Part shown: positions 14,984 through 44,834 of the stretch, one piece after another | How the letters are laid out: every line of letters starts with the position of its first letter | Numbering within the stretch: the stretch's first letter is position 1 | Assembly (NCBI RefSeq): GCF_025751535.1 | Contig: NZ_JAOWLC010000001.1 | Location: forward strand, 434,001-498,000 | Direction of reading: 5' to 3' | DNA: 64,000 nucleotides | DNA from: Lentibacter sp. XHP0401 | Lineage (GTDB): Bacteria; Pseudomonadota; Alphaproteobacteria; Rhodobacterales; Rhodobacteraceae | Program-made: the position numbers and the translations under genes | Notes under the pieces: model-generated | Told to the model about the DNA's origin: nothing | The model's database searches: none | The model's input: the letters and a program-made list of their open reading frames with translations, nothing else

Positions 14984-15056
14984 ATGTAAGGGAAATACAT
15001 CTCTTGTGGAAGAGGGCATGATGCGGCAAATAAGCGAACTCCTTTTCACGAGCGTA

Positions 15057-15173
15057 CGCTGCATTAACTAATTTTCTGTTACCAAAAAACTGAGTCAGCC
15101 GGTGCATGCATGGTGCACGGGTTGTGTACGCTTATCACCCCTCTGGAATCAGCAGGGTTTTGCTGCGTTAACC
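15057..15173 (-). repeat. 117-base intergenic element with 11-bp phased GTGCAC-like sites (copy A)
   Basis: Read on the minus strand, this stretch aligns without gaps to 44692-44808 on the plus strand; by hand count about 86 of 117 columns match. Shared blocks include GGTTAACG at the start, GCTGATTCCAG, GGGGTGATA, three GTGCAC-like hexamers spaced exactly 11 bp (GTACAC, GTGCAC, ATGCAC here), and AAAATTAG near the end. The TAA stop codon of the glycosyltransferase gene lies inside its first block. Function unknown; see findings. Confidence 0.7.
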
Positions 15174-16832
15174 TAACCGCGCGATGTATCCGTATTTCAA
15201 CAACCAGGCATAGCAACGCTCGACGGTCATCGGGTTGAAAGACAGCATTCTGGCCACATCGGTGGCCACCACACCGCGTTTGTCCGCTGCCGTAACGGAA
15301 TCGAGAACAAGTCGTAAAGTTTCAATTTTTTCAAAGGGTTGCTTCAAATTGTTATACTTACGCAGAGTGAAAATCTCTTCCAGATCCGGTGTGCGCCCCG
15401 TGGCGACACAAGCCGCAATCCCGCGAGGCAGGGTCTCGCTGGGATAGCCCGCAAAAAGCTTCATCGGCGAAGGTGCGGTTGGATTGTCGTGTAAATGGCG
15501 CTTGTCGGCGGTCTCGGCTGCCATGCTTCGAATAGATGATAGTTCTCCCCAAAGCTCTTGATATTGCGGGATAATAACCTTCCATGAGAAGAACTCGTTC
15601 ACCCGTTTCAGACCTGCTTTTCCCATCGCTTTCCGCTTCGCAGGATCTGACGCCAAGGTCACAATCGCTTCGGTTAAGGCGGGCAAGTCAACCTCGGTCA
15701 TGGCACTGATATTGCTGCCATATTGCGCATAGGAGAGCCGTTTTGCGTGATAGCCCCAAGCATCAATCGCCCCATGCCCTGCGGGCAGGCTGCGTGTGGG
15801 CACACGAATACCCACATCCTCACTTACAGTGTCGCGCATCCCGTCCCAATCGGTGGTGATCTGGGGCAGGCCGGCGGCCATCGCCTCAAGGGGGGCAAGA
15901 CCAAAAGTTTCCTGAATATTATCAATAGGAAAAGTGAAGATATCGGCACCAGACAAGGCCTCGGTGCGGGCCTCTTTGCTGGCCCCGTCAAGGTGCGTGT
16001 AGCTCACGCTCGGCATGAGCTTTGCCGCACCCGTTTCAAAGATTTCGCGCGAGTGTTTGTCCGAGTAAATCCCGCAGGCGATAAAGTGCAGTTTCAGGCC
16101 TTTGGGCAGTTTGGCGCTGGCATCTTCTATGGCCAGAAAGAGCGGATACGGGTCAAATTTTCCGTAAGGTGTTAGGCGCGAAAGGGTAGATATAACAATA
16201 TCTTTTGATGTAAAGTTCATGCGCTGCCTGAACTTTTCTCGCGCCGCTGGCTGGTGGGCATAATCCTCAGGTGTCACCCCCAACGGAATCACAGGCATTA
16301 TCGGCCGCGCCGGGACAGAGCCAAACCGCTCTCGCAGGTAATCATCCACCATATCCTGCTGGGCCTCCTGGCTCGCCAACACAGCCCGAGACGTACAAAT
16401 CACCGCATCCCAAGGCATCTGCGGCCCCAGACGCAGATCAACCGCGCCTTGCATGACGGCAGAGGTGGCCGTTGTGTGAGTGATCCCGCAGATGGAATAT
16501 GTTGTGTTTCCAAGGCTTTGCCGCCGCCACAGCTCGGTGGTGAAGTTAGGTGCGGGGTAGTAAAGCACATCACAGGGGGCGATCTTGCGGGCATTGAAAA
16601 ATACAGATCCCCGAACGGGTTTTGATACCCCGAAAGCCTGCATTTGTGCTTCAAAGGCCTTCGCTCCCCGCGGGGTTTCGCTAAGGCTGACAAACTCATC
16701 AACTGCTGCGTGTTCGGCGAAGCCCTTGAGAAAAGAAGCCCCGGCCACACGCCGCCCGTTTATACCCTTGTTCTCAGGGTCATAGCCGTCACTGGCATAC
16801 CAGATAGCGGCATTATGTTTGGGCGTGCTCAT
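15168..16832 (-). CDS. GT4 family glycosyltransferase with C-terminal winged-helix-like tail
   Basis: 554 residues. The central and C-terminal parts show a GT-B retaining glycosyltransferase: IVISTLSRLTPYGKFDPYPL as the start of the donor-binding half and QETFGLAPLEAMAAGLPQ as the E-x7-E motif of family GT4. The donor and acceptor are not predictable. The last 50 or so residues are unusual: IETLRLVLDSVTAA then GVVATDVARMLSFNPMTV, and RCYAWLLKYGYIARLG, which reads like a winged helix-turn-helix rather than a glycosyltransferase ending. The gene stands alone, away from other polysaccharide genes. Catalytic class is well supported; the tail assignment is my inference. Confidence 0.82.
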   Translation of the reverse strand: MSTPKHNAAIWYASDGYDPENKGINGRRVAGASFLKGFAEHAAVDEFVSLSETPRGAKAFEAQMQAFGVSKPVRGSVFFNARKIAPCDVLYYPAPNFTTELWRRQSLGNTTYSICGITHTTATSAVMQGAVDLRLGPQMPWDAVICTSRAVLASQEAQQDMVDDYLRERFGSVPARPIMPVIPLGVTPEDYAHQPAAREKFRQRMNFTSKDIVISTLSRLTPYGKFDPYPLFLAIEDASAKLPKGLKLHFIACGIYSDKHSREIFETGAAKLMPSVSYTHLDGASKEARTEALSGADIFTFPIDNIQETFGLAPLEAMAAGLPQITTDWDGMRDTVSEDVGIRVPTRSLPAGHGAIDAWGYHAKRLSYAQYGSNISAMTEVDLPALTEAIVTLASDPAKRKAMGKAGLKRVNEFFSWKVIIPQYQELWGELSSIRSMAAETADKRHLHDNPTAPSPMKLFAGYPSETLPRGIAACVATGRTPDLEEIFTLRKYNNLKQPFEKIETLRLVLDSVTAADKRGVVATDVARMLSFNPMTVERCYAWLLKYGYIARLG

Positions 16833-16923
16833 TGTGTTTGCTCGTTTTGGTGTTTTTCAAAACACTAGCCCGCAGCCCGGGAAAACCAAAGCGCTGATTG
16901 CGCCGGTTTCCCCGCGCCGCTTG

Positions 16924-16938
16924 TTAACGCGACCGTAA
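16924..16938. promoter_or_regulatory. Near-match CtrA site upstream of glycosyltransferase gene
   Basis: TTAA at 16924-16927 and GTAA at 16935-16938 are separated by 7 bases, one mismatch from the CtrA consensus TTAA-N7-TTAA. It lies 92-106 bases upstream of the minus-strand glycosyltransferase start. Weak evidence on its own. Confidence 0.25.
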
Positions 16939-16966
16939 CCTCTTTGCTTCAAGCTCGGTTCAGATC

Positions 16967-17839
16967 TTAACCGCGCCCACGTTTTTCAAATCGTGGCAAC
17001 ATCGCAGAGAAATCCATGCCGCGCCCGTCTTCCTGTTCTACAAATTGTTCATAGAGCGCAGTTGCGGCTTGGCCCAATGGGGTGTCTGCATCCGCCGAAT
17101 CTGCCGCCTGTTGTGAGAGGCGCAGGTCTTTAAGCATGAGTTCCGCTGCAAAGCCGGGTTTGTATGCGTTGTCCGCGGGGCTCTGGGGGCCAACACCCGG
17201 GGCAGGGCAATAAGCGTTCATCGTCCAAGAGTATCCCGAGGAGGTGCTAACGACATCAAACATCTTCTGACGGTCAAGCCCGAGCTTGTCGGCCAGCGCA
17301 AAGGCTTCGCAGGTGGCTATCATAGTGACACCAAGGATCATGTTGTTGCAGATCTTGGCTGCCTGTCCTGCACCCGCTTCACCGCAGTGCACAGCCTTCT
17401 GGCCCATAATGTCAAAGAGTGGGGCTGCTTTAGAAAATGCCGCCTCCGAGCCGCCCGCCATAAAGGTGAGCGTGCCAGCCATGGCACCGCCAACGCCGCC
17501 GGAAACGGGCGCATCAACGAAGTGAACACCTGTCGCCTCAGCACCTTCAGCCACCGCTCGCGCACTGTCCACATCAACGGTCGAGCAGTCCACTAGGGTC
17601 GCACCTTTGTCCATCACTGGGATCACATCTGCCGCAACAGCGCGCAAAATCGCGCCATTGGGCAACATGGTGATTACAATATCCTGCCCCATGGCCGCCT
17701 CAGCCGCGCTCGCTGAGATGGTGACGCCTTCAACGACCACATCGGCCATGTCAAATCCGGTGACACTATGGCCCGCTTTTGCAAGGTTGGCAGCCATGGG
17801 TGCGCCCATATTGCCAAGTCCGATAAATCCGATTTTCAT
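16967..17839 (-). CDS. mmsB: 3-hydroxyisobutyrate dehydrogenase
   Basis: Oxidises 3-hydroxyisobutyrate to methylmalonate semialdehyde with NAD+ in valine degradation. The 290-residue protein begins MKIGFIGLGNMGAPMAANLA, the Rossmann fold plus family signature; VDAPVSGGVGGAMAGTLTFM is the substrate-binding loop; and GAGQAAKICNNMILG carries the catalytic lysine (K in AAKICNN). The end FSAMLPRFEKR fits MmsB. Third gene of the minus-strand run acyl-CoA dehydrogenase, hydrolase, mmsB, 14 bases after the hydrolase. Confidence 0.95.
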   Translation of the reverse strand: MKIGFIGLGNMGAPMAANLAKAGHSVTGFDMADVVVEGVTISASAAEAAMGQDIVITMLPNGAILRAVAADVIPVMDKGATLVDCSTVDVDSARAVAEGAEATGVHFVDAPVSGGVGGAMAGTLTFMAGGSEAAFSKAAPLFDIMGQKAVHCGEAGAGQAAKICNNMILGVTMIATCEAFALADKLGLDRQKMFDVVSTSSGYSWTMNAYCPAPGVGPQSPADNAYKPGFAAELMLKDLRLSQQAADSADADTPLGQAATALYEQFVEQEDGRGMDFSAMLPRFEKRGRG

Positions 17840-17853
17840 GAGAACGGTCTCCT

Positions 17854-18885
17854 TTATGGGAATGTCAGTTCGAGTCGGCCGAGAGGGGCCAACATGGCTT
17901 CTGCGACACTCGGGTCAATTTGCGCGGTAGAATGTTTCCAGCGCGGTGTGCGGTCTTTGTCGATAATGGCTGCGCGAATGCCTTCAAGGAAGTCGCCGTA
18001 TTCCATGGCCCGCGCGGTGAAGCGATACTCCAAAGCGAGTGCTTCCCGAACATCAGTGCAGCCTCTGAGGCGCTTCATTATGAGCAGGGTAGCGGCCATG
18101 GAAAGTGGCGACGCACGGTTCACCGATTTCAGCGCAGCGGCGGCAAAGGCTGACGTATCAGCTTGTAAGACTTCCAGAATGGCCGACAGATTTGTCTGCG
18201 CGAAAGCGGCGTCAATTATGGTTTGGTTCGGCTCCAAATGGCCCTCTGGCGCAGTGCTGCTGGCAGCAGTGAGCACTTCCAAATCTGCGCCATTCCAAAG
18301 GTCTTCTATAAGCTTTGTCCACTTGGCTTCAGGGATGTAAAGGTCGGCAAAGCCCGCATAAATTGCGTCAGCTGCAACCATCCGCGCGCCAGTGAGGCCG
18401 AGGTATGCACCACAGGCCCCCGGTGCATTGGCAAGGATCATCGAGCCGCCTACATCCGGCACAAGTCCGATGCCGCACTCGGGCATCGCCACTTGTGAGC
18501 TTTCCCCCACAACACGGTGAGAGCCATGGCAGCCAACCCCCATGCCGCCCCCCATCGTAAAGCCTTGCAGGAAGGAAACGACAGGTTTGGGATAATCGTG
18601 CAACGCGGCGTTCATCCGGTATTCATCACGCCAGAAGGTTTGGCCAAAGGCAAAGTCACCGCGCTTTCCCGTCTCGTAAAGCTCTGCAATATCACCGCCG
18701 GCCGAGAAGGCTTTTTCACCCTCTGCGTCGATGATTACAAGCTTCACTGCAGTGTCATCCTGCCAGCTTTCAAGGGCCGCGTGAATGGCAGTAACCATCT
18801 GATATGTAACTGCATTCAGCGCTTTCGGACGGGTGAGTGTAATTCGTCCAGCGCAGCCCTCAACCCTGATGAATATGTCGCTCAT
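17854..18885 (-). CDS. 3-hydroxyisobutyryl-CoA hydrolase (enoyl-CoA hydratase superfamily)
   Basis: A 343-residue crotonase-fold enzyme. FSAGGDIAELYETG forms the oxyanion-hole region, and MPECGIGLVPDVGGS holds the Glu and Asp that distinguish 3-hydroxyisobutyryl-CoA hydrolases from plain hydratases. The length (about 340 instead of 260) also fits the hydrolase. It would release 3-hydroxyisobutyrate for MmsB, the next gene. Its start overlaps the acyl-CoA dehydrogenase stop by 4 bases (ATGA), so coupled translation is likely. Confidence 0.92.
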   Translation of the reverse strand: MSDIFIRVEGCAGRITLTRPKALNAVTYQMVTAIHAALESWQDDTAVKLVIIDAEGEKAFSAGGDIAELYETGKRGDFAFGQTFWRDEYRMNAALHDYPKPVVSFLQGFTMGGGMGVGCHGSHRVVGESSQVAMPECGIGLVPDVGGSMILANAPGACGAYLGLTGARMVAADAIYAGFADLYIPEAKWTKLIEDLWNGADLEVLTAASSTAPEGHLEPNQTIIDAAFAQTNLSAILEVLQADTSAFAAAALKSVNRASPLSMAATLLIMKRLRGCTDVREALALEYRFTARAMEYGDFLEGIRAAIIDKDRTPRWKHSTAQIDPSVAEAMLAPLGRLELTFP

Positions 18886-20027
18886 GATACATCTGCAATC
18901 ATCTGGCGCGAGATGATCATGCGCATGATTTCGTTGGTTCCTTCAAGAATTTGATGAACCCGCAAATCACGCACGATTTTCTCAATGCCATAGTCGGCCA
19001 AGTAGCCGTAGCCGCCGTGCAACTGAAGGCAGCCGTTGGCGACATCAAAGGCCGCGTCGGTCACCATCAGCTTGGCCATCGCGCAAAATTTGCTCGCATC
19101 TGGCGCACCGTTGTCAAGTTTCCATGCGGCTTGGCGCAAGAAGGTGCGAGAGGCTTGCAATTTGGTTTCAAACTCGGCCAGACGGAACTGAAGCGCCTGA
19201 AACTGGTTGATGGGCTTGCCGAAAGCCTTGCGCTCACTCATGTATTGCATCGTGAGGTCGAGCGCGTTTTGGGCTCCGCCCAAAGCTGAGGCAGCTATGT
19301 TAAGGCGCCCGCCATCAAGCCCCGCCATGGCATAGGAAAAGCCGCGGCCTTCCTCGCCGATCAGGTTGTCATGTGGCACTGTGCAATCGTCAAATTGAAC
19401 CTGGGCTGTGGGCTGCGCACGCCAGCCCATCTTGTCTTCAAGCGCACCAAAGCTAAGGCCTGCCGCGCCATCTTCCACCACAACGGTCGAAATGCCTTTG
19501 GGCCCGTCTACGCCGGTACGAACCATTGTGACATAAGCATCGGAGTAGCCTCCGCCCGAGATAAAAGCCTTTGTTCCATTGAGTTTATAGCCCTCGTTGG
19601 TTCTTTCCGCACGGGTTTTCAGCGCGGCGGCATCAGAGCCTGAACCTGGCTCTGTGAGGCAATAGGAGAAGATTTTTTCCATAGAGCATAGGGCGGGTAG
19701 CCATTTGGCTTTTGTTTCCTGAGAGCCGAACTTGTCGATCATTCCGCCGCACATATTATGGATCGATAGGAACGAGCCCACAGCGGGGCAAGCCATTGCC
19801 AGCGCTTCAAACACCAGTGTTGCATCAAGCCGTGACAGGCCGGAGCCGCCGCTTTCCTCGCTGACATAAAGCCCGCCAAAGCCCAGCTCGGCCAGTTTGG
19901 GCCAAAGCTCCTTCGGAATCGTTTCGGCCTTTTCCCACTCCTGCGCAAAGGGTGCGATATGCTCTGCGCCAAAGCTCTTAGCCATATCGAAAATCAGCGT
20001 TTGCTCTTCACTCAAAGCAAAGTTCAT
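18882..20027 (-). CDS. Acyl-CoA dehydrogenase, probably isobutyryl-CoA dehydrogenase
   Basis: A 381-residue FAD enzyme. CLTEPGSGSDAAALKTRAE is the FAD/substrate signature; ERKAFGKPINQFQALQFRLA and LHGGYGYLADYGIEKIVRD are family blocks; the catalytic base is the Glu in ILEGTNEIMRMI. Membership of an operon with 3-hydroxyisobutyryl-CoA hydrolase and MmsB points to isobutyryl-CoA as substrate (ACAD8 type), giving methacrylyl-CoA. First gene of the operon; a near-perfect 28-bp palindrome lies 31-58 bases before the start. Confidence 0.92.
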   Translation of the reverse strand: MNFALSEEQTLIFDMAKSFGAEHIAPFAQEWEKAETIPKELWPKLAELGFGGLYVSEESGGSGLSRLDATLVFEALAMACPAVGSFLSIHNMCGGMIDKFGSQETKAKWLPALCSMEKIFSYCLTEPGSGSDAAALKTRAERTNEGYKLNGTKAFISGGGYSDAYVTMVRTGVDGPKGISTVVVEDGAAGLSFGALEDKMGWRAQPTAQVQFDDCTVPHDNLIGEEGRGFSYAMAGLDGGRLNIAASALGGAQNALDLTMQYMSERKAFGKPINQFQALQFRLAEFETKLQASRTFLRQAAWKLDNGAPDASKFCAMAKLMVTDAAFDVANGCLQLHGGYGYLADYGIEKIVRDLRVHQILEGTNEIMRMIISRQMIADVS

Positions 20028-20057
20028 GGCGGTATCCTCCCAGATGTCAGTTGTGCG

Positions 20058-20085
20058 TGCGAATTGAACATATGTTTAATTCGCA
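20058..20085. promoter_or_regulatory. 28-bp near-perfect palindrome before valine operon
   Basis: Thirteen of fourteen base pairs match around the centre at 20071/20072; only 20066/20077 fails. The core is AACATATGTT with outer arms TGCGAATT and AATTCGCA. It lies 31-58 bases before the acyl-CoA dehydrogenase start codon. Length and symmetry fit a dimeric TetR- or MerR-type repressor site; no such regulator is encoded nearby. Confidence 0.6.
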
Positions 20086-20142
20086 AATCTTACAGGAGTT
20101 TTGCAGGGCTTCAAGCCGTCAAGGCAGCTACAATTCTTTAGC

Positions 20143-21276
20143 CTATAATCCTGCGTGAAACTCGTCGATGAGATACGTTACAACCGAGCCTAAGGCGGCG
20201 TCTTTGTCCTGACCTGCCGCGCGGGCCTCTTTGTAAACTTGGCGTTGTAAGTCTGCTGCGTTGCCCTTTGCCGCAATCTCTCTGGCGTGTTCAACTTCTT
20301 GGCGGCAACCGAGAATACCAGCGTCCTCTTCGACCAGTGTGATAAGTTCTTCGACAAGCTCATTGAAAGGAACAATCTCTCGCGCACCGAGGTCGATCAG
20401 CCCTTCACTTACTCCGTAGCGCTGTGCACGCCAGCGGTTTTCTGAAATGAGAAAGTTGTCATAAATACGCCAGCGCTGGTTTTTCATCGCAAGCCGCCAG
20501 AGCATCCGGGTGAGGGATTGGATCAGCGCAGCCAGTGTCAGAGCGGTTTCCATGCGCGGGGAGACATCACAGATGCGGCTTTCGATCGTTGGAAAGCGCG
20601 AGGAGGGCCGTAGATCCCACCAGACCTTGGAGCTGTCTTCTATCACCCCAAGCTCGACGAGGACTTCAATAGAGCGGTCGAACTCATCCCAACTTTCCAT
20701 GCGCGGCGGTAGGCCCGTGCGCGGGAGGTTGTCAAACACGGACAAGCGGTAACAGCTGAGGCCAGTGTCGTGCCCTTGCCAGAAGGGGGATGAACAGCTT
20801 AAAGCCAGCAGGTGCGGCAGGAAGTATTTGAGTTGGTTGACCAGATCAATACGCATGGATTTTTCGGGGATCCCGACATGGACATGACAGCCGCAAATGA
20901 GCAACCTCTGGACCACACCGGCAAGATCATCGTGTAACTCGTTGTAGCGCTCTTTCGGGGTGTGGTGCTGATCGCGCCAGTCGGAAAACGGGTGGCAGGA
21001 GGCCGCTATCGGGGCAAGGCCGTGCTCACCTGCAATGCGGGCGACTGTGCTGCGCAACCGTTTCAGGTCTTCGCGAGCCTCACCAACATTGGCGCAAACC
21101 TTGGTTCCGATCTCGACCTGACATTCCAGAAACTCGGGGCTGAACTGGCCCTCAAGGGCATCAGCGCAAGCTTGCATCATCTTTTCCGGCGCACGGGCCA
21201 GCGCCAGACTTTCGCGATCGACAAGCAGGTATTCTTCTTCAATACCGATTGTAAAATCTGGTTCGGTACGTGACAT
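20143..21276 (-). CDS. YbdK-type carboxylate-amine ligase (glutamate-cysteine ligase 2 family)
   Basis: A 377-residue ATP-grasp-like ligase of the GCS2/YbdK family. [20 protein letters not shown] is the N-terminal signature; [19 protein letters not shown] and [19 protein letters not shown] supply metal and substrate residues. Family members show weak gamma-glutamylcysteine ligase activity, but true function and substrate are open. It sits on the same strand behind the STAS-like gene and about 115 bases before the valine operon, with no obvious link to it. Confidence 0.88.
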
Positions 21277-21346
21277 GGCGTGTCCTTTTGTGACAAAGGT
21301 TCCGCCGATTTCAACAGCAATTCCGTTTTAGCGCAAGCCTTTGGGC

Positions 21347-21730
21347 TTAGCTTTGCTCAACCCAAGTCTTAGCATCCTGTATTGTTTCAAATATTGCGGC
21401 TCTGGCCCAATTCGACTGTTCGGTCAGGTTTTCAAAAATACGGCTCATGCCGAAGGAAACCTCATTTGAGACTACAAGCGCAACTCGCATGGGCACCCCA
21501 GCCTCTGCATAGCGGCGGCCATACATTGCAAAAAGCGAGAAGACTTCGCTAAAGCCAACTTCGCTTGTATCGACGTCTCTGAGGTCGGCAATATGTGGAC
21601 GGGGTAAGGAAAAGTCAGGGTCGGCCTGATAGCTCTCGAACATAGTCGAGATATCAGAAAGGGTCACAACTCCAGTGTACAGAGCTACAACAACGTTAGG
21701 CTTTTCGAGTATTTGGTAGCTTACTGGCAT
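21347..21730 (-). CDS. Hypothetical protein, STAS/SpoIIAA-like
   Basis: A 127-residue soluble protein with no signal peptide or membrane helix. The alternation of short strands and helices, with HIADLRDVDTSEVGF in the middle and ALVVSNEVSFGMSRIFENL later, recalls STAS or SpoIIAA-like domains, but I cannot name a family with certainty. The ribosome site is weak (CTAGGCCT before ATG). It lies between the mmsA terminator and the YbdK-like gene, possibly cotranscribed with the latter (70-base gap). Confidence 0.6.
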   Translation of the reverse strand: MPVSYQILEKPNVVVALYTGVVTLSDISTMFESYQADPDFSLPRPHIADLRDVDTSEVGFSEVFSLFAMYGRRYAEAGVPMRVALVVSNEVSFGMSRIFENLTEQSNWARAAIFETIQDAKTWVEQS

Positions 21731-21760
21731 AGGCCTAGCAATTCCCGGACGGCTAATGTG

Positions 21761-21790
21761 AAAAACGGCCCCCGCTAGGCGGGAGCCGCT
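21761..21790 (-). terminator. mmsA terminator
   Basis: On the minus strand, CGGC/GCCG and GCGGG/CCCGC arms (21766-21788) form a 9-bp stem with one mismatch and a 3-base loop, followed by TTTTT at 21761-21765. It begins about 27 bases after the mmsA stop and separates mmsA from the STAS-like gene. Confidence 0.85.
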
Positions 21791-21814
21791 TCTACCATGG
21801 CGATAAATATAATT

Positions 21815-23314
21815 TTAGTCCATAGGCTTGAAGTTGAATTCGCCACCATTTTTGATGCCTGAGGGCCAACGTGACGTGACGGTTTTGGTGCGTGTGTAGA
21901 ACTTGAACGCATCAGGACCGTGCTGGTTCAAATCGCCGAAGACAGATTTTTTCCAGCCGCCGAATGTGTGGTAGGCAAGTGGCACAGGGATTGGCACGTT
22001 AATGCCGATCATGCCAACATTGATACGGTTGGCGAAGTCGCGTGCGGCATCACCGTCGCGGGTGAAAATTGCGGTTCCGTTGCCATACTCGTGGTCCATC
22101 GCAAGCTTGAGAGCTTCTTCATACGAGCCTGCGCGCACAGTGCTGAGCACGGGGCCGAAGATCTCTTTTTTGTAGATGTCCATGTCAGGTGTAACCCTGT
22201 CAAAGAGATGCGGACCAACAAAGAAACCGTCTTCATACCCCTGAAGCGAAAAGTCACGACCATCGACAACAAGTTCGGCACCTTGATCAACGCCCGATTG
22301 AACAAGCTTGAGGATGTTTTCCTTCGCAGCTGAGGTCACAACGGGGCCATAGTCGACATCATCACCCGAGGTGTATGGCCCGACTTTGAGCTTTTCAATG
22401 CGCGGAACGAGCTTTTCAATGAGCTTGTCTGCTGTTTCTTCACCCACGGGAACAGCGACAGAGATCGCCATGCAGCGTTCGCCTGCTGCGCCGAAACCCG
22501 CACCGATGAGGGCGTCTGCGGCTTGGTCAAGGTCGGCGTCAGGCATAATGATCATGTGGTTCTTCGCACCACCAAAGCACTGCACGCGCTTGCCCTGTGA
22601 ACAGCCGGTGCCGTAGATATATTCGGCAATCGGCGTTGAGCCAACAAAACCGACAGACTGGATTGTCTCGTCATAGAGGATCGCGTCAACAGCCTCTTTA
22701 TCGCCGTTCACCACTTGCAGAATACCTTTTGGAAGGCCTGCTTCTTCCATGAGTTCGGCCAGCATGAGCGGAACCGACGGGTCGCGCTCGCTAGGCTTAA
22801 GGATAAAGGCATTGCCGCAAGCGAGGGCCGGGCCGAACATCCACATCGGGATCATGGCGGGGAAGTTGAACGGGGTGATGCCGGCTGTCACGCCGAGAGC
22901 CTGACGCATGGAATACATATCGATGCCGGGGCCTGCGCCATCGGTGTAGTCGCCCTTGAGCAACTCTGGAGCGCCGATGCAATACTCGATAACTTCGAGG
23001 CCGCGCTGCACATCGCCTTTGGCATCAGGGAATGTTTTGCCGTGCTCGCGGCTCAGCGCTTCGGCGAGTTTGTCCATATCGCGGTTGAGCAGATCGACAT
23101 ATTTCATCATCACGCGCGCGCGGCGCTGTGGGTTGGTCGCCGCCCATGCGGGCTGGGCTGCAGCGGCGATGGCTACGGCCTTTGCCATCTCTTCTTTAGA
23201 GGCTAGCGGCACCTTGGCCTGCACTTCGCCTGTGGCGGGATTGAAAACGTCAGCAAAACGGCCAGACGTGCCTTTGACATGTTCGCCGCCGATGTAATGG
23301 GTAAGTTCTTGCAT
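21815..23314 (-). CDS. mmsA: CoA-acylating methylmalonate-semialdehyde dehydrogenase
   Basis: Converts methylmalonate semialdehyde to propionyl-CoA (and malonate semialdehyde to acetyl-CoA), the last step of the valine branch. The 499-residue aldehyde dehydrogenase shows GITPFNFPAMIPMWMFGPAL, the cofactor loop VGFVGSTPIAEYIYGTG and the catalytic cysteine in GAAGERCMAISVAV. ATG 23314 (MQELTHYIGG) is used because GGAGG lies 5 bases upstream; an in-frame TTG four codons earlier is inside that site. Divergent from a LysR gene and ended by its own terminator, so regulated apart from the other valine genes. Confidence 0.96.
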   Translation of the reverse strand: MQELTHYIGGEHVKGTSGRFADVFNPATGEVQAKVPLASKEEMAKAVAIAAAAQPAWAATNPQRRARVMMKYVDLLNRDMDKLAEALSREHGKTFPDAKGDVQRGLEVIEYCIGAPELLKGDYTDGAGPGIDMYSMRQALGVTAGITPFNFPAMIPMWMFGPALACGNAFILKPSERDPSVPLMLAELMEEAGLPKGILQVVNGDKEAVDAILYDETIQSVGFVGSTPIAEYIYGTGCSQGKRVQCFGGAKNHMIIMPDADLDQAADALIGAGFGAAGERCMAISVAVPVGEETADKLIEKLVPRIEKLKVGPYTSGDDVDYGPVVTSAAKENILKLVQSGVDQGAELVVDGRDFSLQGYEDGFFVGPHLFDRVTPDMDIYKKEIFGPVLSTVRAGSYEEALKLAMDHEYGNGTAIFTRDGDAARDFANRINVGMIGINVPIPVPLAYHTFGGWKKSVFGDLNQHGPDAFKFYTRTKTVTSRWPSGIKNGGEFNFKPMD

Positions 23315-23390
23315 TTGATCCTCCAAGCAAATTTGAAAGTATAATAGCCTTGCGTTTATGCGGTGAAAAGAGGCAGGTTCTCACGGCATG

Positions 23391-23408
23391 TTTTGCGTTT
23401 TTGCAAAA
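23391..23408. promoter_or_regulatory. Inverted repeat between mmsA and LysR gene
   Basis: TTTTGC at 23391-23396 and GCAAAA at 23403-23408 form an interrupted palindrome in the 106-base divergent spacer, 13 bases before the LysR start codon. A T-N11-A element, typical of LysR-type operators, is contained in it. Likely autoregulatory or mmsA-controlling site; inferred. Confidence 0.4.
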
Positions 23409-23420
23409 TAGGAGGGCAGG

Positions 23421-24317
23421 ATGACCCCGAATTGGGACGATATGAAAAACTTTCTCGCCGTGGCGCGTGCCGAAACCCTTTCAGGGGCCGCCGCGTTGCT
23501 GAGGGCTGATCCTGCAACGGTCGGCCGTAGGGTGTCGCGATTGGAAGGGGCTTTGGGCGAGGTGCTTTTCACCAAATCTCCGCAGGGTTACATGTTGACG
23601 CCACAGGGCCAGAAGCTGCTTCCTCATGCGGTTCGGCTGGAGCAGGCCATGCTCGACGCGCGCGATGCCTTGGACGGGCAGGGGGCTGAGCTTTCTGGAC
23701 AAATCAGGCTTGGGGCGCCCGATGGTTGCGCCAATTTCCTTTTGCCGCAAGTCTGCGCGGCAATCACAGCCCAAAACCCTGATCTAGATATTCAGATTGT
23801 GGCGTTGCCGCGTATTTTTAACCTTTCGAAGCGCGAAGCAGATATGGCCATTACAGTGAGCCGGCCCGAAGCGGGGCGGCTTGTCGTGCAAAAACTTGCA
23901 GATTATAAACTACACCTCGCGGCTTCTGAAGGATATCTCTCTAGTCATCCGCCAATTTCTGACATGGCTGCGCTTGGAGGGCACCGGATTGTTGGCTACA
24001 TCCCCGATATGATCTTTGACAAAGAACTTGATTATATGAGCGGCACGCCTTTTGAGCGGGTGGCGCTGGCGTCCAATTCGGCCTCTGTGCAACTGAACAT
24101 TTTGCGGCAGAGCGGCGGTGTCGGTGTGGTGCATGACTTTGCGCTGCCAGCAGCGCCCAATTTGCGAAAGGTGTTGGCCGATAGTTTTAGCCTTAAACGC
24201 AGCTTTTACCTTATCCGTCATGAGGATGACCGTCGCGTTGCACGCCTGACGCGATTTGCTGAAGCGCTCAGTGAGGGGGTGCGCCGTGAAGTTGCGAAGC
24301 TTGAAGCGCTCGCTTGA
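23421..24317 (+). CDS. LysR family transcriptional regulator
   Basis: A 298-residue LysR-type regulator. Residues about 5-64 form the winged helix-turn-helix (FLAVARAETLSGAAALLRAD then VGRRVSRLEGALGEVLFTK); the rest is the periplasmic-binding-protein-like effector domain starting at LSGQIRLGAPDGCANFLLP. Divergent transcription from mmsA makes mmsA the likely target, with a valine-pathway intermediate as a plausible effector. Ribosome site GGAGG is well placed. Confidence 0.9.
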   Translation: MTPNWDDMKNFLAVARAETLSGAAALLRADPATVGRRVSRLEGALGEVLFTKSPQGYMLTPQGQKLLPHAVRLEQAMLDARDALDGQGAELSGQIRLGAPDGCANFLLPQVCAAITAQNPDLDIQIVALPRIFNLSKREADMAITVSRPEAGRLVVQKLADYKLHLAASEGYLSSHPPISDMAALGGHRIVGYIPDMIFDKELDYMSGTPFERVALASNSASVQLNILRQSGGVGVVHDFALPAAPNLRKVLADSFSLKRSFYLIRHEDDRRVARLTRFAEALSEGVRREVAKLEALA

Positions 24318-37780: not shown

Positions 37781-39520
37781 ATGCCCGCAAAGATTGCACG
37801 TGCCGATTATGCCGCGATGTTTGGCCCCACGACAGGCGACAAACTCAGACTGGCAGACACTGATCTGATTATAGAGGTCGAGCGAGATCTGACCGCCGAG
37901 CGTGCGGGGGGCGCTAACGCCTTGCGCTACGGTGAAGAAGTCAAATTCGGGGGCGGTAAGGTGATCCGCGATGGTATGGGCCAAAGCCAGATCACACGTG
38001 CCGCTGGAGCGGTGGACACCGTTATCACCAATGCGTTGATCGTAGATCATTCGGGTATCTTTAAGGCCGATGTCGGCCTGAAAGACGGGCGCATTGCCAA
38101 AATCGGCAAGGCAGGCAACCCGGATACCCAACCGGGTGTTGATATCATAGTGGGTCCGGGAACCGAGGTCATCGCTGGCGAGGGGCGCATCCTGACAGCG
38201 GGCGGCTTTGATAGCCACATTCATTTCATTTGCCCCCAACAGATCGAAGATGCACTTCACTCAGGGCTGACAACCATGCTCGGCGGAGGCACCGGCCCCG
38301 CACATGGCACACTTGCAACCACTTGCACGCCCGGGCCCTGGCACATCGGGCGTATGCTGCAGGCGGCGGATGCTTTTCCGATGAACCTCGCTTTTTCGGG
38401 TAAGGGCAATGCCTCACGCCCAGAGGCGCTTGAAGAGCAAATTCTTGGTGGCGCGTGTGCGCTAAAGCTACACGAGGATTGGGGCACAACTCCTGCTGCG
38501 ATCGACTGCTGCCTGTCTGTTGCAGATGATTGGGACGTTCAGGTGATGATTCACACTGACACGCTCAATGAAAGCGGCTTTGTTGAAAATACTGTCGCCG
38601 CCATGAAGGGCCGCACGATCCACGCCTTTCACACCGAAGGTGCGGGTGGCGGGCACGCGCCTGATATCATCCGCATTTGTGGCGAAGAACATGTGCTGCC
38701 ATCGTCTACTAATCCTACACGCCCTTTTACAGTGAACACGCTTGAAGAGCACCTTGATATGCTGATGGTGTGTCATCACCTCGATAAATCAATCCCCGAG
38801 GATGTTGCCTTTGCAGAAAGCCGTATCCGCCGGGAGACGATTGCTGCCGAGGACATCCTCCATGACATGGGCGCGTTTTCGATCATCGCGTCAGACAGTC
38901 AGGCGATGGGGCGTGTTGGTGAGGTGCTTATCAGAACCTGGCAAACTGCCGACAAAATGAAAAAGCAACGCGGGCGGTTGGCGGAAGAGACGGGTGAGAA
39001 TGACAATTTCCGCGTTCGCCGCTATATTGCAAAGTACACGATCAATCCCGCTATTGCGCATGGTATAAGCCATGAAATCGGCTCGATCAGTGAAGACAAG
39101 CGCGCCGACCTTGTGCTCTGGAACCCCGCGTTCTTCGGCGTGAAGCCCGAGATGGTTCTTCTGGGCGGTAGCATTGTTATGGCGCAGATGGGGGATCCGA
39201 ACGCGTCTATACCGACACCTCAGCCCGTTTACTCGCGCCCGATGTTTGGCGCTTACGGCCGCTCCGTTGAAAGCTCTGCGGTGTGTTTTGTCAGCGTGGC
39301 CGCGCAGGACGCAGGGATAGGCGCTTCACTGGGGCTGGCCAAGCAGACGGTGGCGGTGCGCAACACCCGTGACATCGGGAAATCCGATCTCATTCACAAC
39401 AACGCGACGCCCTTTATAGAGGTGAACCCCGAAACATATGAAGTGCGCGCAGATGGCGAGTTGTTGACCTGCCAGCCAGCAGAAGTGCTGCCGATGGCGC
39501 AACGCTACTTCCTGTTCTGA
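37781..39520 (+). CDS. ureC: Urease subunit alpha (catalytic)
   Basis: 579 residues holding the di-nickel site that hydrolyses urea to ammonia and carbamate. Nickel ligands and catalytic residues are visible: HIHF in [18 protein letters not shown], the carbamylated lysine in [12 protein letters not shown], His in [25 protein letters not shown], the mobile-flap [20 protein letters not shown] and the Asp in [18 protein letters not shown] sits before ATG 37781; the adjacent GTG 37778 is disregarded. Confidence 0.98.
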
Positions 39521-44243: not shown

Positions 44244-44672
44244 ATGGATGATCTGGATCAAAAGCTTGTGTCTGCCCTTCGGCAGGATGCGCGGGCCTCT
44301 CATTCGGACCTTGCCGGGGCGCTCGGGGTGACGCGGGCAACAGTGCGCGCGCGGATTGCGCGGCTGGAGGCGCGAGGGGTTATTCTCGGCTACTCTGTGG
44401 TCTTGCGCGAGGACCGTCTGGCCGACCCTGTGAGGGGGCTTATGATGATCGGAATCGAAGGACGCGGGACAGAGAGAATCCTGCGGCAACTGGCAGGATT
44501 TCCGGCAGTGCGGGGCGTGCACAGCACCAATGGACGCTGGGACGTGATTGCGGAAATAGGCACTGACAGCCTTGAGGCTTTTGACGATGTTCTGGCGCGG
44601 ATCAGGAAGCTTGATGGCGTGGCAACATCGGAAACTTCGCTGCTTTTGAGCACCAAAAAATCGACGGGTTAG
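44244..44672 (+). CDS. Lrp/AsnC family transcriptional regulator
   Basis: 142 residues. N-terminal helix-turn-helix: LDQKLVSALRQDARASHSDL then GVTRATVRARIARLEARGVI; C-terminal RAM ligand-binding domain from VRGLMMIGIEGRGTERILRQ to LLLSTKKS. Divergent position next to arginase and ornithine cyclodeaminase suggests it controls arginine use with arginine or ornithine as effector, as known for related regulators. The 122-base divergent spacer holds TGTGC/GCACA arms 33 bases apart. Confidence 0.92.
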   Translation: MDDLDQKLVSALRQDARASHSDLAGALGVTRATVRARIARLEARGVILGYSVVLREDRLADPVRGLMMIGIEGRGTERILRQLAGFPAVRGVHSTNGRWDVIAEIGTDSLEAFDDVLARIRKLDGVATSETSLLLSTKKSTG

Positions 44673-44691
44673 GAGGGGCACCGTTCCGTCT

Positions 44692-44808
44692 GGTTAACGG
44701 GGGGAAACTGCGCTGATTCCAGGGGGGTGATATGCGTGCACGATGCGTGCACCCCCCGTGCACCGTGTGAATCGGGGTTCTGTTAACGCAAAATTAGGTA
44801 ACGAGGCG
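44692..44808 (+). repeat. 117-base intergenic element with 11-bp phased GTGCAC sites (copy B)
   Basis: Homologous without gaps to the minus strand of 15057-15173. Three perfect GTGCAC hexamers start at 44736, 44747 and 44758, exactly 11 bp apart and so on one face of the helix. An 8-bp pairing GGGGGGTG/CACCCCCC surrounds the first two, but it is not conserved in the other copy. It lies 20 bases after the Lrp/AsnC stop, between convergent genes, as copy A lies at the end of the glycosyltransferase gene. Confidence 0.7.
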
Positions 44809-44834
44809 TTCGGTGCCCGGGGCAGGTTGGTCTT

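Follow-up and report, generated by a model that had tools for sequence, protein, structure and literature searches.

A dispersed family of hexamer arrays aligned with GC skew on the chromosomes of Lentibacter and its relatives

Two copies of one element in the window

The window, a 64,000-nucleotide stretch of the 3.71-Mb draft genome of Lentibacter sp. XHP0401 (the source genome, G000; window G000:C11:434001-498000), contains two copies of an element located at the ends of genes. Copy A occupies 15048-15189 on the minus strand (G000:C11:449048-449189) at the end of a glycosyltransferase ORF (15168-16832, minus), and copy B occupies 44675-44820 on the plus strand (G000:C11:478675-478820), following an ORF at 44244-44672 (plus). 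Profile R1 recovers them with E values of 1.9e-28 (copy A) and 4.8e-35 (copy B, the top-scoring copy of the genome), values that are to be read in light of the fact that both copies belong to the 13 sequences used to build this profile. The first-pass annotation had reported an ungapped match of about 86 identities between 15057-15173, read on the minus strand, and 44692-44808, read on the plus strand, and our count confirmed 86 of 117, far above the next-best ungapped match of either copy in the whole window on both strands (53 identities; mean of about 29-30, standard deviation 4.7).

Read in its own direction, each element has a left outer box (of the CGNNCG type at 15177-15186, minus, in copy A; 44679-44688, plus, in copy B), followed by GGTTAACG (15166-15173, minus; 44692-44699, plus). 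As the annotation had also stated, both copies begin at or just after the stop codon of a same-strand gene: GGTTAACG of copy A overlaps the stop codon of the glycosyltransferase ORF (15168-15170), and that of copy B starts 20 bp beyond the end of the preceding ORF. A G-rich box, GGGGTGATA (15133-15141, minus; 44724-44732, plus), stands upstream of the core array, which consists of three hexamers at 11-bp spacing. This array is an exact GTGCAC-N5-GTGCAC-N5-GTGCAC in copy B (44736-44763, plus) and reads GTACAC, GTGCAC and ATGCAC, with two mismatches to the triple GTGCAC, in copy A (15102-15129, minus). The right outer module extends from AAAATTAG to AGCGTACG in copy A (15053-15075, minus) and from AAAATTAG to GGCGTTCG in copy B (44790-44812, plus). 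When up to three mismatches to the triple GTGCAC were allowed, copies A and B were the sole two matches in the window (0.08 expected), and none of 100 shuffled sequences contained two.

In keeping with their orientation, minus-strand copy A is surrounded by negative GC skew and plus-strand copy B by positive skew; the sign switches near 20 kb (within 16000-24000 of the window), between the two copies. Their orthologues in a second genome of the genus (L135 and L134 in G001) are likewise oppositely oriented. This suggests that an old inversion end, or another change of skew, lies between copies A and B.

Family size, core and position

Searching the genome and its relatives, as proposed in the first-pass annotation, yielded both further copies and an excess of the GTGCAC triple. 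Profile R1, built from 13 copies, returned 59 matches in G000 at E<=1, corresponding to 58 distinct elements with E<2e-11 and one match (E 0.14) antisense on one of these 58. The elements are mostly intergenic and occur at a density of about one per 64 kb. The triple hexamer with at most two mismatches is found at 57 places in this genome, compared to none for the reversed control pattern. All seven genomes of the genus that we examined carry the element (profile matches at E<=0.001): 58 in G000, 52 in G001, 55 in G002 and 49 in G004, as well as 22 in G003, 21 in G005 and 25 in G006, where the matches are mostly weak.

Alignment of 109 copies (58 from G000 and 51 from G001) identified the box GGGGGGTGA and the three CGTGCAC units as the most constant parts. 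Elements range from 40 to 150 bp: short copies comprise barely more than the core, and long copies are extended on the left by a module of CGNNCG followed by GGTTAACG and on the right by one composed of GTTAACG, AAATTAG or similar, TTAA, and GCGTNCG. A strict pattern of the right module, employed as a family-wide probe, matched in 3 of 394 genomes; the core, not the flank, is therefore the widely shared part. GANTC, the methylation site of CcrM, is present in 34 of 51 G001 copies and 40 of 58 G000 copies and is not universal.

For 49 of the 58 G000 copies, at least one gene of the surrounding 6-kb stretch is common with a G001 stretch containing an element, when about 5.4 shared positions would be expected from the portion of G001 covered by element stretches. 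None of nine element-free G001 stretches was matched in the same comparison. Judging from these shared neighbours, the positions of the elements are inherited vertically within the genus. Identity between the 49 orthologous pairs is 0.98 at the hexamers and 0.99 in the box, whereas it drops to 48% in the spacers, to 40% in the variable part upstream and to 66% in the downstream part; the respective values for unrelated copies are 47%, 30% and 55%. By this sequence comparison, the core, that is the G-rich box and the three hexamers, is under strong purifying selection, and the spacers and the upstream part are nearly saturated. The annotation had called for a test of covariation versus base-level motif conservation, and the outcome is base-level: the hexamers are 98% conserved between orthologues and there is no covariation. 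The spacers also show preferences particular to each genome, with AACCC in 28 and 29 of the 51 G001 copies and more varied letters in G000, and hold almost no memory of orthology.

Other genomes of the genus carry different cores at shared positions. Among the 30 loci of G003, G005 and G006 in which the units were counted, 17 have a flanking gene in common with an element locus of G000 or G001 (in two cases only at 45-47% identity), and in the 14 of these 17 that were aligned, the outer modules and in places the flanks are recognisable, while the cores differ. The units of the G006 loci are of the GT(A/G)CA type, mostly three per locus and 12-13 bp apart, and the loci of G005 and G003 contain mostly three to four units of the GTGCAT or ATGCAG type, spaced mostly at 12, 12 and 11 bp. 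The strict 11-bp spacing noted at first is a feature of G000 that does not extend to these relatives (mostly 12-13 bp in the G006 loci examined; 12/11 in G005 and G003), and, given the spacing in G006, binding to a single helix face is not a general rule. Two G006 places match the G000-type pattern, so replacement of the core is incomplete. One G006 locus, L054 (G006:C33:457413-457543), retains three GTGCAC at 11 bp and is possibly a relic of an older code; the nine further G006 loci that were examined have other cores. Of 28 loci outside the genus, 5 have a flanking gene in common with G000 or G001 loci, which is near a possible chance level, and shared positions are therefore a property documented within the genus only.

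A profile scan of 198 genomes of the family gave matches in 18, and a deeper scan of eight of these (E<=1) returned 96 in G100, 55 in G216, 25 in G024, 21 in G136, 15 in G068, 13 in G103, 7 in G124 and 6 in G223. The loci drawn from these scans of relatives were picked by a model trained on G000-type elements. The pattern GTRCAY-N5-GTRCAY-N5-GTRCAY, which admits GTGCAC, GTACAC, GTGCAT and GTACAT alone and lets other cores escape, occurs in 52 of 394 family genomes and is absent in 342, while its reversed control has 3 matches in all 394. Of the 52, 38 hold at least four strand-places and 14 hold three or fewer, some of which are perhaps due to chance; spread and polarity were checked in few of the 52. 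Among the places listed, each positive genome tends to employ one or two of the four hexamers. Across 385 genomes sampled from the whole class, of which 5 belong to the family, the GTRCAY triple was found in two, namely G000 and one of the 380 outside the family, in which the matches listed resemble a minisatellite. Records with at least one element include, among the matches listed, Roseovarius, Zongyanglinia, Sulfitobacter and Loktanella. Using copy B alone as the query, with a sensitivity of about 65-70% identity or more, we obtained matches in 4 of 72,556 plasmid records, all Sulfitobacter and at one place each, and in none of 50,697 phage records. Three of these plasmids (L325, L326 and L327) share one segment, in which the element lies beside a RidA-family gene.

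Orientation and spread along the chromosome

The strand of the element corresponds to the sign of local GC skew, computed without the element and 60 bp on either side, in 50 of 51 G001 copies and 57 of 58 G000 copies, so that the locally G-rich strand carries 107 of 109. The ORFs in the same stretches are split between the element's strand (293) and the opposite strand (350). Using GC skew as a proxy for replication direction, we find that the orientation of the elements follows replication and is independent of gene direction. G001, a single 3.28-Mb contig, allows for comparison with the replichores: 45 of 51 copies agree if the skew minimum is taken as the origin, and 44 of 51 if the parS sites are. 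This origin rests on the skew, which is mixed at about 2.95-3.02 Mb, and on two exact parS sites, at 3,035,462 and 3,037,346, that support the origin region; the sign of the skew also changes at about 1.46 Mb. A stretch near the presumed origin (G001:C1:2945000-3020000; L372-L375) is without elements, has mixed GC skew and contains several ORFs that, on visual inspection, resemble sugar or polysaccharide genes, and is possibly a genomic island.

Six to seven of the 51 G001 copies, in which the core is intact or nearly so, oppose their replichore, and wrong orientation is therefore tolerated. Five of the reversed copies sit in local skew of matching sign, for the most part weak, as would be expected of inverted segments; in one orthologous pair (L143/L188), the copies of both species run against the local skew. 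Agreement with skew was also found in 31 of 33 copies of a Lentibacter metagenome-assembled genome (MAG), in 19 of 19 of the Roseobacter MAG AQU-03, and in 21 of 21 of AQU-04, an apparent near-duplicate and hence not independent. The latter is labelled as a Flavobacteriia bacterium, yet its matching contigs carry the names and lengths of those of Roseobacter sp. AQU-03, and the label is probably wrong. In other named records, 9 of 11 loci follow the skew (both misses being Loktanella loci, among the matches listed), and loci of other species and genera do so in 68 of 76 cases, 4 of which are shared with the named-record and MAG sets.

Part of this polarity would follow from the G-richness of the element alone, given that G-rich 8-mers outside the elements already lie on the G-rich strand in ratios of 115:24 and 6474:1834 (78-83%). 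When 0.83 is taken as the composition baseline, 107 of 109 still exceeds it (P 4e-7). Agreement is 10 of 11 in G100. In G262, 8 of 9 copies are consistent with each other and with the skew, and here GTGCAT reads on the C-rich strand, while the core as read on the G-rich strand contains 7 G and 12 C and so is not rich in G.

Along the G001 chromosome the elements are more evenly spaced than random (coefficient of variation of the gaps 0.67 vs 0.97, P 0.001), with 4 gaps below 20 kb where 13.4 would be expected. Counts by quartile from origin to terminus are 16, 12, 14 and 9 and hence do not rise towards the terminus. With respect to genes, as called by an ORF heuristic, the 109 elements lie in 34 convergent, 14 divergent and 46 tandem contexts, 14 inside a called ORF and 1 without a neighbour call; background gaps are 22 convergent, 46 divergent and 64 tandem (convergent versus divergent, Fisher P 6e-5). 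The 46 tandem contexts divide equally, 23 with the element on the strand of the genes and 23 with it on the other strand.

Candidate functions and relation to known systems

Broadly, the element belongs with polar chromosomal sites, yet it lacks the KOPS motif and the gradient of AIMS and is a poor fit to a strict fork barrier. KOPS, given as GGGNAGGG (PMC13342612), and their reader FtsK gamma resemble it in being polar, dispersed on the chromosome and oriented from origin towards terminus (44-45 of 51 for the element in G001). However, KOPS is a short motif, in contrast to an array of 40-150 bp without terminus enrichment, and none of the 109 G000 and G001 copies holds GGGNAGGG on either strand. 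FtsK gamma is, from sequence comparison, unlikely to read the element: G000, G003 and G005 have different cores yet an identical FtsK gamma recognition region, and GGGNAGGG is absent from the 109 copies. AIMS are described as leading-strand-biased, chromosome-wide octamers that are shared more among related taxa and become more abundant and more biased towards the terminus (PMC5993296). The element shares the leading-strand bias (107 of 109 copies lie on the strand that is locally G-rich), but it is a long composite array whose density is flat or falls towards the terminus, so that an identity with AIMS is unsupported by the G001 quartiles.

Tus-Ter and RTP-Ter are polar protein-DNA sites aligned with fork direction, as is the element, and comprise about ten sites around the terminus, whereas the element has 58 copies chromosome-wide and, in G001, several that are intact and reversed. 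In parC/ParR and tubC/TubR, a small DNA-binding protein reads an array of direct repeats of 11 or 12 bp; these are single plasmid loci beside their own genes and have more repeats per locus, in contrast to dispersed chromosomal mini-arrays of 3-4 units. The sites of Noc and SlmA are likewise dispersed on the chromosome in tens; unlike the element, they are short palindromes without polarity. A dif consensus had no match within 8 mismatches, and a dif pattern had one poor match. We know of no element of this size that is polar, evenly spread and inherited in position and has a core that turns over, and to our knowledge replication-oriented chromosome signs are either short oligomers or a few terminus sites. 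Among the papers listed in searches of the open-licence PMC literature, none describes it, which is weak evidence for its being unpublished.

The reading that we favour, and hold to be slightly more likely than not, is that the chromosome-wide family of replication-oriented arrays serves as oriented landmarks for a putative, co-evolving DNA-binding protein in replication or segregation. Three or four protomers of this dedicated protein would line up head-to-tail along the array as a polar complex, which could mark direction, serve as a loading site or work as a gate for machinery travelling along the chromosome arms in replication or segregation. The logic is similar to that of KOPS, with a reader that is probably not FtsK gamma. 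Core and putative reader would co-evolve, and the signs would differ between lineages as a result. A more far-reaching version, which we put forward tentatively, is a private address system of the Rhodobacteraceae, in which 50-100 oriented arrays and a dedicated reader direct chromosome machinery and fast co-evolution yields different signs at the same positions within one genus. The chromosome-wide spread, the replication polarity and the core turnover at shared positions, which are the main features and were absent from the first-pass annotation, suggest a direction-sign system on bacterial chromosomes that is so far undescribed. Such a system would make three questions directly testable: what reads direction on the chromosome arms of the ecologically important Rhodobacteraceae, how the specificity of a protein can shift in step with that of its dozens of sites, and whether lineages are kept apart by such codes.

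The arrays could constitute a chromosome-wide polar fork barrier, similar to Tus-Ter or RTP-Ter, that passes forks running from origin to terminus and stops those moving backward. Orientation along replication and under-representation between divergent genes are consistent with such a role, and a multi-protomer array of direct repeats could resemble a polar roadblock; nevertheless, the six to seven intact or nearly intact G001 copies that face the oncoming fork, one of them reversed in two species, and the lack of terminus enrichment make it unlikely. The arrays might also be non-polar anchoring sites for nucleoid occlusion or a nucleoid-associated protein, their orientation being a passenger of the G-rich leading strand or of ancestral order. 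Noc and SlmA sites are roughly similar in number and in their terminus-poor distribution to the approximately 50 dispersed elements, which are slightly fewer near the terminus, and 78-83% of G-rich 8-mers outside the elements are on the G-rich strand anyway. We give anchoring a small chance of being correct, given that the observed polarity exceeds this baseline, that the G262 cores are consistently oriented in 8 of 9 cases without being G-rich, and that direct repeats are intrinsically polar.

The remaining alternatives had all been raised at first pass in some form. A mobile noncoding element is unsupported as a present activity, with 49 of 58 positions orthologous and matches in 0 of 50,697 phage and 4 of 72,556 plasmid records. 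An old one, such as a MITE or an IS200/IS605-like element inserting into the lagging-strand template, which dispersed with a bias in orientation and has since become fixed, would account for copies of one, mostly intergenic sequence family, for the roughly inverted CGNNCG/TTAAC modules at both ends of long copies, and for the flanking gene being shared by just 5 of 28 loci outside the genus; single-strand transposons do insert with replication-linked orientation. Still, we consider it quite improbable: the 49 of 58 positions are common to two species (as tested within the genus), selection is concentrated in the core, the core differs in place while the flanking modules stay recognisable, the end boxes lack covariation, and beside the absence from phages, the three plasmid records examined, out of four, share one segment. 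Of the proposed regulator-binding array, the binding of a protein stands, based on base-level conservation of the hexamers without covariation, whereas an ordinary OmpR/PhoB-type transcription regulator is very unlikely. Direct repeats at 11-bp spacing are what operators of such a regulator would look like, but the elements are under-represented between divergent genes (14 divergent vs 34 convergent; background 46 and 22), which is not a promoter-type location, and they are evenly spaced and oriented with replication rather than linked to gene strand (23 same, 23 opposite). The 12-13 bp spacing in most G006 loci and the 12/11 spacing in G005 and G003 likewise argue against it.

A structured RNA or 3'-UTR element is scarcely credible, even though both window copies follow a same-strand gene and RNAalifold predicted 20 pairs from 13 copies. 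A two-sided change occurs in 1 of these 20 pairs, and nearly all of them rest on invariant palindromic letters, whose self-pairing in GTGCAC is broken in the GTGCAT lineages. Pairs between the end boxes, either as hairpins or as pairing inverted repeats, were not above the best of 1000 shuffles. The 3'-UTR RNA of the first-pass annotation thus finds no support, neither from covariation nor from the tandem contexts, which are evenly divided between the two strands. Rfam, at the gathering threshold, gave no match at copies A and B, and its matches in the window are a tRNA and a member of the 5' ureB small RNA family (RF02514, 115 bits) at 37964-38251 on the minus strand, a family described in Helicobacter.
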